From contig JAKAKL010000122.1 of assembly GCA_021824565.1 (NCBI GenBank), forward strand, positions 1 through 64,000: a stretch of DNA of 64,000 bases, in the 5' to 3' direction. Within the stretch, counting starts at the first letter, position 1, and the number at the start of each line of letters is the position of its first letter. This DNA is from Bacteroidota bacterium (GTDB lineage Bacteria > Bacteroidota > Ignavibacteria > Ignavibacteriales > Ignavibacteriaceae). A program made the position numbers and the translations under genes. Positions 28,985 through 47,171 of the stretch are shown in pieces. The notes beneath the pieces were generated by a model that made no database searches, had not been told where the DNA came from, and saw only the letters and a program-made list of their open reading frames with translations.

Positions 28985-29371
28985 TCAGCTTATGTTAATA
29001 AAAATATTATTGCTGAAATCAAAATTAAAACACAACTGGAACAGCAAGCCTACGATCAACGGCTGAATCTTGTTCATGCTTTTTATAACCTTCATCATTT
29101 TCAATTTAAATGCGCGCCTGTCCTGTTCATTTAGGTTTGCGCAGATGAAACACATTTCCAATTCGCGTGCTGATTTGCTTTCATCGGGGAGGAACAACTG
29201 CTTGCCGGTGAGGCTGCATATTTTGAAAAATAATTTTCTGGATGGAACAACCTTGCCTGCTTCGAGCCTTGAATAATACTCGCGGCTGATGCCCAGCTTA
29301 TCCGCCATTTGTTTCTGCGCCAGGTTATTATCCGTACGAAATTCTTTTAACACCTTTTTATAAGTACCCAT
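28985..29371 (-). CDS. XRE-family HTH regulator
   Basis: 128 aa with an N-terminal Xre/Cro helix-turn-helix at residues 5-58 (LAQKQMADKLGISREYYSRLEAGKVVPS), a middle charged region with two Cys, and a hydrophobic C-terminus (IVGLLFQLCFNFDF) that might touch the membrane. It points away from the 21-bp array that begins 275 bases upstream of its start. A role as regulator of that locus is an inference from position only. Confidence 0.75.
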   Translation of the reverse strand: MGTYKKVLKEFRTDNNLAQKQMADKLGISREYYSRLEAGKVVPSRKLFFKICSLTGKQLFLPDESKSARELEMCFICANLNEQDRRAFKLKMMKVIKSMNKIQPLIVGLLFQLCFNFDFSNNIFINIS

Positions 29372-29645: not shown

Positions 29646-30086
29646 GCAAGAATTTATCATCAACCGGAAAGAATAAATGCCGGCAGAAATATCTGAAGTA
29701 TTTAAATAGATAGATTTTATGTCTGCAAGAAAAGAATAGATGTTCTTTTAAATATCTGGATCAGATGGAAATAAAGAATTTATGTTTATATAGATATCTG
29801 AAGCGAAAAAATTAATAGAATAAATGACAGCATGAATAGTTAAACTGTTCTCATAAAAAGAATGAATGATGGCATAAATATCTGGGATGGGTGCATAAAA
29901 AGAATTTATGTTAATGCGGATAGTTGAAAGATGAACATAAAAAGAATAAATGCTTACATAAATACTTAAGATGCTTTCATAAAAAGAATAAACGTTGATA
30001 TAAATATCTGAAATGTGAGAGTAAAAAGAATAAATACCGGCATAAATATCTGAAATGTGCACGTAAATAGTATTTATGTCGACATT
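29646..30086. repeat. Phased 21-bp tandem array, 21 units (array 1)
   Basis: The 441 bases divide without a single insertion or deletion into 21 units of exactly 21 bp. Units differ in sequence but, over much of the array, tend to alternate between two types: AAAAGAATAAATG-N4-CATA and AATATCTGAAATG-N4-CATA, giving a 42-bp higher period. Each unit carries an ATG-N4-CAT dyad; in the last unit this becomes the perfect palindrome ATGTCGACAT. Because 21 is a multiple of three, a minus-strand frame stays open across most of it with heptads such as xIYSFYx/xISDIYx, but it has no ATG start. The array sits 123 bp upstream of the helical/FN3-like gene. 21 bp equals two DNA turns. Confidence 0.9.
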
Positions 30087-30209
30087 TTGACAATAAATTT
30101 ACGAATTTCGCAGTTTTTTCGTTTAGAGACGGCATTTTTCCTAAGAATAACATCTCTGAACACAACAAATAAATAAACAACATAAAAGAGAAAGGTTAAG
30201 GGTAACAAA

Positions 30210-30824
30210 ATGACTCAATATCTTTTGAATATAATAAACCGTTTAACAAATATTCTAAACGGTATGCTTCAAAGTCCTGAGCTATGGACAAAGGAAGGAG
30301 AAACAGCGGATGTAGTTCAGCGTATGATAACTAATCTTACTACTGCCGGTAAAGTTGTAAGCGATGCAAAAGACGCTTTACTTACTGCGCAGACAAATGC
30401 GAGAAACATTCAGACCAGCATGACAAAATTTGCCGACGATCTTGAAAACTCCGCCATCGCATATGAAAAGAGCGATCCGGATAAACTTATCCATTACGGC
30501 ATAACTTTACGCAAAGAGAAGGTAAAAAAACCCGTACCTGCTTCAATACTTCACCCTTCGCTGGAGGATGATATAGACGGCATCGGTTTTATTGTTTCAT
30601 GTAATACTGATTCTGTTGCTGATCAGTACGAATGGTATAAAGGCAACGGAACCGATCCTACAAAGACAGACGTTACACCGGAAATGAAGCTTTACAAAAC
30701 AACAACCAAAACATCTTTTGTAGACGACGACGTATTAAAAGGCGTAAGATACTTTTATAAAGTTCGTCCGATAAACGCGACAGGCGAGGGACCGTGGAGC
30801 GAAGCTGTCAGCCGTGTGCAGTAA
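30210..30824 (+). CDS. Helical/FN3-like two-domain protein, paralogue 1
   Basis: 204 aa, no signal peptide and no membrane segment. Residues 1-95 are predicted helical with a coiled-coil flavour (VVQRMITNLTTAGKVVSDAKDALLTAQ); residues 110-204 look like a fibronectin-III-type beta domain ending in FYKVRPINATGEGPWSEAVSRVQ. A paralogue 16 kb to the right has the same length and the shared segments SFVDDDV and TTTKTSF. Both are single genes with an array in front and a strong terminator behind. AAAGGTTAAGGG precedes the ATG. Function unknown; such helical-FN3 proteins recur in Bacteroidota. Confidence 0.75.
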   Translation: MTQYLLNIINRLTNILNGMLQSPELWTKEGETADVVQRMITNLTTAGKVVSDAKDALLTAQTNARNIQTSMTKFADDLENSAIAYEKSDPDKLIHYGITLRKEKVKKPVPASILHPSLEDDIDGIGFIVSCNTDSVADQYEWYKGNGTDPTKTDVTPEMKLYKTTTKTSFVDDDVLKGVRYFYKVRPINATGEGPWSEAVSRVQ

Positions 30825-30856: not shown

Positions 30857-31038
30857 ACCTTCGAGGTTACAGATATAGAATATTAATATAGAAAAATTGT
30901 CATTCTATTTTTGCAACCTCGAAGGTCGCAGTTTACAACGAAGCATCTACGGGGTTACAGATATAGAATATTAATATAGAAAAATTGTCATTCTATTTTT
31001 GCAACTTCGAAGGTCGCAGTTTACAACGAACCATCTAC
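30857..31038. repeat. 88-bp tandem duplication with inverted 13-bp ends
   Basis: Two nearly identical 88-bp copies (from GGTTACAGATATAG to ACGAA-CATCTAC) start at 30865 and 30953. The arms GACCTTCGAGGTT (30857-30869) and AACCTCGAAGGTC (30915-30927) are exact inverted repeats, and each copy holds a second palindrome ATATTAATAT. This looks like a small dispersed palindromic element that has duplicated in place. It lies inside the 3' region between the FN3-like gene and its terminator. Confidence 0.8.
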
Positions 31039-31489: not shown

Positions 31490-31723
31490 ATGAATAAACC
31501 GGATAGCTATAACTCGATACAAGAGATAAAAAAATTAAGCGTTGCAGAACGCATTTTATTAGTTGAAGATATTTGGGATAGTATTATTTCATCCGGAGAA
31601 GATCTTCTATTATCAGACGAGCAAAAGAGGGAATTGGATTCTCGCCTGGATGCATATTATAAAAATCCAAAAGAGGGAAAGTCATGGGAAGAAGTTAGAA
31701 AGAATATAAAATCCAAACTATGA
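31490..31723 (+). CDS. Antitoxin, addiction-module component (TIGR02574 type)
   Basis: 77-aa antitoxin. The wording IKKLSVAERILLVEDIWDSI and LSDEQKRELDSRLDAYYKNPKEGKSWEEV is that of the putative addiction-module component family, which partners RelE/ParE toxins. Its stop overlaps the toxin start (ATGA), so the two are translationally coupled. It should neutralise the toxin and repress the operon. Confidence 0.88.
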   Translation: MNKPDSYNSIQEIKKLSVAERILLVEDIWDSIISSGEDLLLSDEQKRELDSRLDAYYKNPKEGKSWEEVRKNIKSKL

Positions 31724-32019
31724 AATATGAATTAATAATTAGACCTGAAGCGGAATCAGAATTATTAGACGCAGTAAAATGGTATGAGGAAAAGGTAAAA
31801 GGATTAGGAGCAGACTTTCTATTAAATGTGGAACCCGCAATTGAATCTATTTTACGAATACCTGATGCGTATACACCAATTTATAAGAATACAAGAAGAG
31901 CATTAGTTAGAAGATTTCCTTTTGGTGTCCATTATATAATTGATAAAGAAAAAATAGTGATATTGGCAATATTCCATGCACGAAGGAATCCTAAGGACTG
32001 GAAGAAGCGTATGTTGTAA
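31720..32019 (+). CDS. RelE/ParE-family toxin
   Basis: 99 aa with the fold-defining segments RPEAESELLDAVKWYEEKVKGLG, IPDAYTPIYKNTRRALVRRFPFGVHYIID and the terminal VILAIFHARRNPKDWKKR. ParE-type members attack gyrase and RelE-type members cut ribosome-bound mRNA; this one cannot be assigned to either from sequence alone. Together with the preceding gene it makes an intact type II module. Confidence 0.9.
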   Translation: MKYELIIRPEAESELLDAVKWYEEKVKGLGADFLLNVEPAIESILRIPDAYTPIYKNTRRALVRRFPFGVHYIIDKEKIVILAIFHARRNPKDWKKRML

Positions 32020-45991: not shown

Positions 45992-46495
45992 CGGCTATCG
46001 TTAAATGCGTTTTGTAAAATGTAAATCGCATTTGAAAAATCTTTAATGCGTTTTTTAAAAAATGCTTAACCGGATTTTAAATTGAAAAGCGCAGATAAAG
46101 AAACAAAATATTCATTCCTGGAAACTTCTAATGTAAGGAGGAAAACTTACAAGGCATTCTGAGAAACTCCGTCTGCATTATAAGAAACTTCAAACGCTGT
46201 TAAAGAAACACGAATCGCTGTGTAAGTAACTTTGAAGGCATTTAAAGAAACACGAAACACGGCATAAGAAACATGAACTATATTCAAAGAAACACAAATC
46301 GCGATGTAAGAAACATAAACCGTATTTAAAGAAACACGAAAAGCAATATAAGAAACTCTAACAGCATATAAAGAAATACGAAACGCGATAAAAGAAACAT
46401 AAACAGCATTTAAAGAAACACAAAACGTATTTCGTAATTCATAAATCGTCTTAAAAGAAATTGAAAATGAGATATTAAATTCACAGAATGCGAAA
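45992..46495. repeat. Phased 21-bp tandem array, about 24 units (array 2)
   Basis: The stretch divides into 24 units of 21 bp with no apparent indels. The best-kept part is 46097-46474 (18 units), in which many units carry AAAGAAACACGAAA and often alternate with TAAGAAACATAAAC, giving a 42-bp two-step pattern. The units before about 46097 keep the register but hold AAATGCGTTT or AAATCGCATTT instead. The minus-strand reading is open with heptads such as FRVSLNA and FEVSYNA, again without a convincing start. Sequence differs from array 1, but period, alternation and position upstream of the paralogous gene agree. Confidence 0.85.
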
Positions 46496-46556
46496 TTGGC
46501 AAAAAATCGCACAAATTCTGAATTAATCACAAGCAGCCGGAAAGGAGGAAAAAGCA

Positions 46557-47171
46557 ATGATAAAGTACTTATCGGATTCGTCCAATCGCTTAAAGTCATT
46601 GAAAAGCGGGATGGAAAAGAATGCCGCAGTGTGGGAAAACCAAACGGATAAGCCGGATATGGTTCAGCTAAAGATAGACGCGTTAGCATCGAAAGAAAGA
46701 GAAATAGACGATCTGAAGACAAGTCTTTCGGTGAAGCAGAGCGAAGCGCATGCGCTTAGCGGCGATGCCGAAGCTTATGCAGACAGGATCGAATCTTTAG
46801 CCGTAGGTCTGGAAAACGGAAATACTGATAAGCTGAATGAATACGGAATAAAGCTGCGTAAGGCAATATCAAAGAAACCCGCACCTACGCAGGTTCTAAT
46901 CCCGATTATTGAAGACGACAGCGACGGAGTGGGCTTTGTTGTTTCCACGCAGTTCGATGCCAATGCAGATATATACGAATGGCAGAAGGGAAGCGGAACA
47001 GATGCATCCAGGACAGATGTAGTTCCCGAGATGAAGCTGTTTAAAACTACAACGAAGACATCATTCGTCGACGACGATGTTCCCAAAGGCGTTAGAATAT
47101 TTTATCGAGTAAGATCGGTAAACAGCGTTGGTCAGGGACCGTGGAGCCAGGCAGCCAGCAAGGTGCAATAA
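46557..47171 (+). CDS. Helical/FN3-like two-domain protein, paralogue 2
   Basis: 204 aa, identical in length to the copy at 30 kb. The helical N-terminal domain (residues 1-100) is charged (EREIDDLKTSLSVKQSEAHAL); the C-terminal half is FN3-like (GVRIFYRVRSVNSVGQGPWSQAASKVQ). The two proteins share FN3 wording such as TTTKTSFVDDDV. No signal peptide. Strong ribosome site AAAGGAGGAAAAAG. Array 2 ends about 60 bases before the start. Function unknown. Confidence 0.75.
   Translation: MIKYLSDSSNRLKSLKSGMEKNAAVWENQTDKPDMVQLKIDALASKEREIDDLKTSLSVKQSEAHALSGDAEAYADRIESLAVGLENGNTDKLNEYGIKLRKAISKKPAPTQVLIPIIEDDSDGVGFVVSTQFDANADIYEWQKGSGTDASRTDVVPEMKLFKTTTKTSFVDDDVPKGVRIFYRVRSVNSVGQGPWSQAASKVQ

Follow-up and report, generated by a model that had tools for sequence, protein, structure and literature searches.

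The window analysed here is a stretch of 64,000 nucleotides from a bacterium of the Ignavibacteriaceae, whose genome is called G000 below. Within it, only array 1 and the region of array 2 exceeded our threshold for a period of 21 bp, and each of these arrays lies upstream of one of two paralogous genes encoding proteins of 204 amino acids (Table 1). In array 1, the per-column information at period 21 was 0.83 bits, compared to 0.31 ± 0.02 bits in 500 dinucleotide shuffles. An initial annotation had described this array as 21 units of exactly 21 bp. When each unit was scored against the profile of the other 20, offset 0 was best in 20 of the 21 units, and a gapped profile alignment contained no indel across 420 bases; the first unit claimed does not fit. 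Two units scored low but were still in register (29793, +1.0; 29751, -8.4). Single bases vary as widely as had been stated, with a mean unit identity of 0.53. We could also confirm the alternation of two unit types in a 42-bp step, since identity was 0.57 between units two apart versus 0.44 between neighbours (p=0.001, 5,000 shuffles of unit order). Array 2 alternates likewise (p=0.0006, unit-order shuffles), and a weaker periodicity around it reaches to about 46090-46493. The dyad ATG-N4-CAT, which had been called fixed, is present in 6 of the 21 units, and array 1 fails a general dyad test (p=0.27); the term was an overstatement.

Table 1. Coordinates of the arrays, the adjoining genes and the array-end motifs in the window
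Feature	Position	Strand	Description
Non-matching first unit claimed earlier	29646..29666	.	In-register score -10.1, best offset +4
Array 1	29667..30086	.	20 in-register 21-bp units of two alternating types, AAAAGAATAAATGnnnnCATA / AATATCTGAAATGnnnnCATA
Array-end motif, array 1	30105..30118	+	ATTTCGCAGTTTTT
204-aa protein gene adjoining array 1	30210..30824	+	Helical hairpin (about residues 1-104) and FN3-like domain (about residues 105-204)
Array 2	46180..46431	.	12 clear 21-bp units, alternating; unit sequence differs from that of array 1
Array-end motif, array 2	46504..46517	+	AAATCGCACAAATT
Paralogous 204-aa gene adjoining array 2	46557..47171	+	Product 48% identical to that of the gene at 30210..30824

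The structure predicted for the window protein (mean pLDDT 90) consists of helices at residues 3-21, 33-85 and 90-96, followed by an FN3-like sandwich. By this predicted model the C-terminal half has an FN3 fold: it matched five PDB chains in Foldseek at E<=0.001, two of which are named FN3 or Fn3-like. Pfam gave nothing above cut-off for the protein, with FN3 matches below cut-off. For the helical half, Foldseek returned nothing at E<=0.001 and no known DNA-binding fold was found; a structure look-up gave ties among long helices (best Z 7.5), in a list from which the absence of a family excludes nothing. Both window paralogues matched minor tail protein in PHROGs (0.0065 and 2e-07) over stretches that include the FN3 part, and we take these matches as FN3 similarity. 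Named relatives of the locus were mostly metagenome genomes of Bacteroidetes or Ignavibacteria. We found nine matches to the FN3-type family in G000, two of them partial at contig ends. With the own genome counted, matches were detected in 13 of 146 relatives, in 11 of 395 phylum genomes and in 22 of 391 class genomes, counts that include fragments and FN3-domain matches in unrelated long proteins. At the ends of contigs C126 and C28, the FN3-type genes L008 and L009 are cut inside the gene, as if near-identical copies had broken the assembly.

Other features surround array 1. An 88-bp tandem duplication (97% match) with a AACCTCGAAGGTC-type repeat lies at 30865-31038, and similar copies of this repeat are found upstream of the paralogue L003. 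Two overlapping small genes at 31490-32019 resemble a toxin-antitoxin pair, presumably of the addiction-module/RelE type. An XRE protein is encoded at 28985-29371 on the minus strand; the 14 shared-neighbour groups that we listed over 39 loci, named by eye from one member each, contain no XRE group. Apart from the gene itself, the widest of these groups are proteins with a secretion-type C-terminal domain (11 loci) and a LuxR-type HTH/response-regulator group, seen in the flanks of 6 of the 39 loci; both are large families, and the counts stand without a background rate.

We then looked at the linkage between arrays and FN3-type genes at the 30 non-redundant loci of the family that have upstream DNA. 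The upstream array was strong at 22 loci and weak at 6 (L010, L011, L017, L019, L022 and L045), and none was found at L003 and L020, whose genes are intact; the threshold of 0.16 between strong and weak was chosen after the first arrays had been seen. The weak arrays showed an excess of 0.107-0.160, whereas the best other position in these loci reached 0.070-0.111. No usable upstream DNA exists for L013, L016, L008 and L009, and a further FN3-type copy in genome G640 also has an array. Over the 40 loci scanned, the threshold was passed, besides by the gene arrays, only by a heptamer repeat at L015 and a remnant at L061. The latter is a broken FN3-type gene of G640; a short remnant of a 21-bp array lies within the stretch that belongs to its N-terminal half. 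In this family, about 50 to 450 bp separate array and gene. Five loci that encode the helical half only (L062-L066) have no array; at a sixth, which encodes L196 (121 aa), an array lies about 300 bp upstream of the gene.

Array similarity was correlated more strongly with sequence identity in the N-terminal helical half (Mantel r 0.41) than in the FN3 half (r 0.17) over 26 loci, the partial genes L045 and L072 being left out. This correlation would fit recognition of the array by the helical half; it would arise equally from physical closeness and recombination. Moreover, a motif with the consensus AAtTtGCAcATTTT is present at the gene-proximal array end of FN3-family loci. The motif set scored 210, versus 130 at the other array end, and 26 of 28 loci exceeded 4 bits; four shuffles gave 106-115 with 60 starts versus 400 for the real set, and the fair control is the other array end. 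In 20 arrays of PQLLE-type (see below) and other helical-protein genes, the mean was 3.5, versus 1.2 at the other end and 1.5 in shuffles. Only a few of these 20 scored high, and the motif is thus chiefly a feature of the FN3 family. A promoter-like motif, AAGTGTGGAGTATA, common to L005, L006 and L010 has three copies in the genome, one of them about 4.5 kb from the L006 gene, and no array was found at that copy.

Arrays also adjoin genes of other small helical proteins, one of which (L137/L205) belongs to the PQLLE family, NCBIfam NF052641 (108 bits vs a cut-off of 80). In G000 there are six PQLLE matches, two of them above cut-off (L137/L205 and L204), and all six genes have a 21-bp array upstream that ends 94-570 bp before the start codon. 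With G000 counted, the family was matched in 10 of 395 phylum genomes. Outside G000, 17 PQLLE loci gave 12 strong arrays, 11 of which lie within about 0.6 kb upstream and one (L225) about 1 kb upstream, 2 weak ones (L218, and L223, which has little upstream DNA) and none at L212, L217 and L224. All strong arrays at FN3-family and PQLLE loci have period 21. The 204-aa proteins of the window do not match NF052641 at its 80-bit cut-off. Comparison of the FN3-type helical half with the PQLLE profile aligned the two at the expected motif, PxxLxxxGIxxRK, with a probability of 16%, which is no more than suggestive of homology. BLAST sorted the array-linked proteins compared into six groups, and many of the proteins, not all, have Pro-rich or basic tails. 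In genome G376, the PQLLE-type gene L221 and the FN3-type gene L056 carry nearly the same array unit (consensus, by eye); one unit therefore does not mean one protein. By eye, the PQLLE-like protein L223 (genome G166) seems to run on into a C-terminal part that is FN3-like, possibly a second FN3 fusion. A phage or plasmid origin and a defence system were considered and rejected: tblastn of one window protein found no phage relative, a single weak viral contig was matched, two PQLLE-type proteins had no tblastn match in plasmids, and 8 array-linked proteins had no match to a defence system in PADLOC.

In a further step, we surveyed 705 kb of G000, in 40 stretches away from FN3-type genes. At periods of 17 to 30, this yielded 28 regions, 22 at period 21 and 6 at other periods. 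Two of the 22 (L128/L129) are one array cut by a stretch boundary and one (L101) lies in a coding ORF, which leaves about 20 arrays; extrapolation to the whole genome gives on the order of 130. The arrays are about 8-26 units long, and their unit sequences are mostly unrelated, with the step fixed at 21 bp. Other genomes with the FN3-type gene gave 1 period-21 region in 100 kb (G001), none in 91 kb (G086), 3 in 100 kb with one at threshold (G376), 4 in 106 kb with three at FN3-type genes or gene fragments (G640), and 1 in 66 kb, beside L196 (G081). With the same filter, none was found in 987 kb of seven genomes that have no FN3-type gene (G005, G009, G013, G017, G018, G020 and G030), four of which (G013, G018, G020 and G030) were also listed without a PQLLE match; two of the seven are congeneric with the window's genome, and the two congeners had no arrays in 305 kb. 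Of the six sampled genomes with the gene, five had arrays away from FN3-type gene loci, as against none of the seven without it (Fisher p=0.005 over 13 genomes, kinship uncorrected). A strong array of period 22 in G018 (L123:6658-7020) indicates that regular arrays near 21 bp are not wholly confined to genomes with the gene. A looser scan of G018 flagged two heptamer repeats at period 21. Heptamer satellites, of the GTAGGCA type at L015 (about -1960 to -1600 from the gene) and the CAATTCA type at L115 (G018), also give signal at lag 21 and need to be filtered out of such scans. Array 1 is thus one of a genome-wide class of helically phased 21-bp arrays.

About 5 of the roughly 20 array sites in G000 have a gene for a small helical protein of this kind facing them, by our reading, and four orphan arrays (L100, L127, L141 and L143) lie between convergent genes. 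No protein remnants were found at E<=0.05 in 19 flanks of arrays without a linked gene, four of these flanks being from other genomes. Some orphan arrays use the unit of a gene-linked one. The unit of L127 is that of the FN3-gene array L002 (similarity 0.95), and the unit of L141 matches that of L139 (0.97), whose array adjoins a helical-protein gene; this unit type occurs at three places of G000 (L139:18949-19497, L141:5155-5622 and L138:3394-3729; 0.82-0.97), once inverted. Two similar pairs of small PIN-like and RHH-like genes were noticed by eye at L131:6697-7336 and L140:5737-6370, no more than about 2.5 kb from two arrays.

The annotation had attributed the constant unit length to selection on spacing, and comparison of the arrays supports such selection. 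In a gapped profile alignment of 28 gene-linked arrays (360 units), array 1 among them, we counted 2,112 substitutions versus 4 indels. A uniform pipeline detected 8 indels in the real arrays, versus 29, 46 and 67 in arrays simulated at 0.02, 0.05 and 0.1 indels per substitution; indel detection is imperfect, and these figures are comparisons, not rates. In ten chosen pairs of related loci, the arrays matched in all ten (z 3.4-48), the spacer between array and gene matched in one (z > 2), and the 300 bp before the array matched strongly in two, with one more at z 2.6. This conservation test is supportive and not decisive, because the repeat nature of the arrays aids local alignment. The annotation had named irregular unit lengths in relatives, or loss of the array beside a normally behaving gene, as evidence against a functional spacing. 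Unit length was regular in relatives; the second point came true in part, as the array was missing at the intact homologues L003 and L020 mentioned above. From locus to locus the units are for the most part unrelated, close relatives excepted, and similarities between arrays of the own genome were 0.18-0.48 in 14 of 15 pairs. Within one array, L059, the units are near-identical (0.91). Twenty-one base pairs correspond to two turns of B-DNA, so that all units face one side of the helix. The annotation's suggestion of a ladder of protein-binding sites on that side would be compatible with array 1.

We next asked at which level the arrays carry their signal, and it appears to lie in the DNA rather than in RNA or protein. 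Dyad symmetry was significant in 19 of the 28 gene-linked arrays, array 1 not among them, and in 6 of 29 other arrays; L101, which lies inside a coding ORF, was excluded from this and the following count. Since 21 bp equal seven codons, the units could encode the seven-residue repeats of a coiled-coil protein, and some arrays do contain open frames, a few of them plausible as heptads, with a clean frame in L047. However, codon-position (mod-3) bias was significant in none of the 28 gene-linked arrays (Fisher p 0.98) and reached p<0.05 in only 2 of 29 others (L183 and L081), and the open frames vary in strand and frame among arrays. The coding reading is thus largely refuted, and we consider it very improbable. 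Still less credit can be given to an intrinsically curved element that works through its shape, which the annotation had put forward. A few arrays scored high (L047, L011, L018 and L059; z > 3), but wedge-model curvature of the 28 arrays did not exceed that of shuffles (mean z 0.3, p=0.54) or of column-permuted periodic controls (0.1); the absolute curvature values obtained with the wedge parameters used are approximate.

Alternatively, the array could be transcribed, as a leader or a separate RNA that binds the protein in the way of ToxI with ToxN. The layout is alike, a tandem array with locus-specific repeats upstream of a single gene, as in the type III toxin-antitoxin systems ToxIN and CptIN, whose repeats are reported to act as RNA on an endoribonuclease. 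RNA of either strand folded better than shuffles on average (z -2.7 and -3.1 over 28 arrays), as the dyads require. Against transcription, RNA stability did not favour either strand (in 15 of 28 arrays the sense strand had the lower value, p=0.49), and the sense strand of L059 folded worse than shuffles (z +3.4). A search of the array ends did not reveal a conserved hairpin (mean z -0.6), array 1 matched neither promoters nor terminators, and Rfam at gathering scores gave nothing in the window. Furthermore, a 21-bp step suits two turns of B-DNA rather than A-form RNA. The protein, unlike that of the type III systems, is a predicted helical hairpin, and no ToxN/TenpN/CptN endoribonuclease was matched in Pfam, NCBIfam or PADLOC among the proteins scanned. 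An RNA-based explanation is therefore improbable in our view.

Arrays of fixed step near genes for small, rod-like proteins point to an undescribed pairing of DNA array and protein. We tentatively prefer the reading that the arrays are a phased DNA platform, probably bound by the neighbouring helical protein. In its favour we count the linkage to two gene families, the fixed step with few indels, the conservation of arrays whose spacers are not conserved, the closer tie to the helical half of the protein, the units that orphan and gene-linked arrays have in common, and the co-occurrence of arrays with the FN3-type gene. A dimeric helical protein, most simply the product of the neighbouring gene, would assemble cooperatively along one face of the DNA, and the predicted 53-residue helix (about 80 Å), near the 71-Å repeat of 21 bp, may dictate the step length. 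Such assembly would give autogenous control of the neighbouring gene, and binding to orphan arrays with the same unit may mark or organise other places on the chromosome. Against this platform stand the charge of the FN3-type proteins, which are mostly near neutral or acidic, the failure to find a known DNA-binding fold in the helical half, and the FN3-type loci L003 and L020 and three PQLLE loci that have no array. The same holds for the small share of sites in G000 that a helical-protein gene faces, the near-identical unit at genes of two families in G376, the dyads that are not significant in array 1 and most of the other arrays outside the gene-linked set, the variable distance to the gene in the FN3 family, and the period-22 array of G018.

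The strongest rival, and a serious one, is that the arrays have no function and merely result from duplication or copying in 21-bp steps, for example by slippage past a protein bound every two turns, and that the linked genes accompany or perform this process. Near-identical units, as in L059, suggest recent amplification, and numerous orphan arrays are found in ordinary intergenic regions or between convergent genes. Such a process would also explain why 705 kb of G000 contain about 20 sites, whose units mostly differ, when 305 kb from two congeners contain none, and why some loci have a unit in common. On the other hand, exact length is kept in heavily diverged arrays, the units but not the spacer are recognisably conserved between species, and the arrays are strongly linked to positions upstream of particular gene families; we consider this origin somewhat unlikely. 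A regulator that is general, nucleoid-associated or encoded nearby, in place of the array-linked protein, might instead read the sites and control the gene. The dyads in 19 of 28 gene-linked arrays, the common motif at the gene-proximal array end and the near-identity of units at two protein families in G376 speak for such operators, as does the LuxR-type group in the flanks of six loci, within the limits given above for this count. In the flanks examined at the remaining 33 loci, however, that group is missing, and orphan arrays lie between convergent genes. Moreover, one sequence-specific factor cannot easily read all arrays, because the units are mostly unrelated within the genome (14 of the 15 own-genome pairs). 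Control by such a regulator is unlikely.

The platform reading can be extended to the chromosome as a whole. On the order of a hundred arrays would share one 21-bp step and differ in their sequence addresses, and diversified coiled-coil proteins encoded beside arrays would polymerise on the matching ones, thereby anchoring, clustering or silencing those places. This extension is speculative and we hold it to be rather unlikely; if true, it would give bacteria an equivalent of satellite DNA, together with proteins dedicated to binding it.

Among known systems, the proposed platform comes close to the ParMRC plasmid centromeres, in which tandem repeats of about 10-20 bp lie upstream of the partition operon, and each system has parC repeats of its own sequence that its cognate protein recognises (PMC5016525, PMC9426499). 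One of these papers (PMC9426499) cites repeats of 10, 11 and 20 bp for three plasmids and of 17 bp for pCW3. The likeness lies in a small protein that reads locus-specific repeats upstream of its own operon, a reading that is only proposed here. In contrast to ParMRC, the arrays are found on contigs of the chromosome, number about 20 in 705 kb and keep period 21 throughout. No ribbon-helix-helix (ParR-type) model of Pfam or NCBIfam matched the array-linked proteins scanned, and the fold predicted for the window protein is a helical hairpin with FN3; no actin-like or tubulin-like motor gene was recognised by eye among the 14 recurrent-neighbour groups listed over 39 loci. The TAACTGA heptamer arrays of Beggiatoaceae, Cyanobacteria and some Bacteroidetes, which lie in large numbers between genes and upstream of ORFs within a single genome, have one fixed heptamer sequence (PMC4679880), whereas here the period is fixed and the sequence changes. 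CRISPR arrays alternate near-constant repeats with unrelated spacers of about 30 bp; here the 21-bp units are all diverged and have no spacer, and the annotation was right to set CRISPR aside. It was equally right about microsatellites: in micro- and minisatellites period and sequence are free at each locus, whereas period 21 recurs at the strong loci despite their differing sequences and accounts for 22 of the 28 regions in 705 kb. Among the open-licence PMC papers searched we found no description of arrays with fixed period and free sequence that are paired with these proteins.

Tandem arrays are usually recognised by their sequence. In the arrays described here, the sequence is free and the helical step is fixed, across mostly unrelated arrays, at least two protein families and several bacterial families. 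This is a strong hint that a physical rule is under selection, namely that sites lie on one face of the DNA and two turns apart, and the rule goes together with uncharacterised proteins. Should the arrays come from copying, this would reveal a duplication mechanism of a new type, one that advances by a fixed step; should the proteins bind them, the pairing would represent a new kind of bacterial chromosome organisation.
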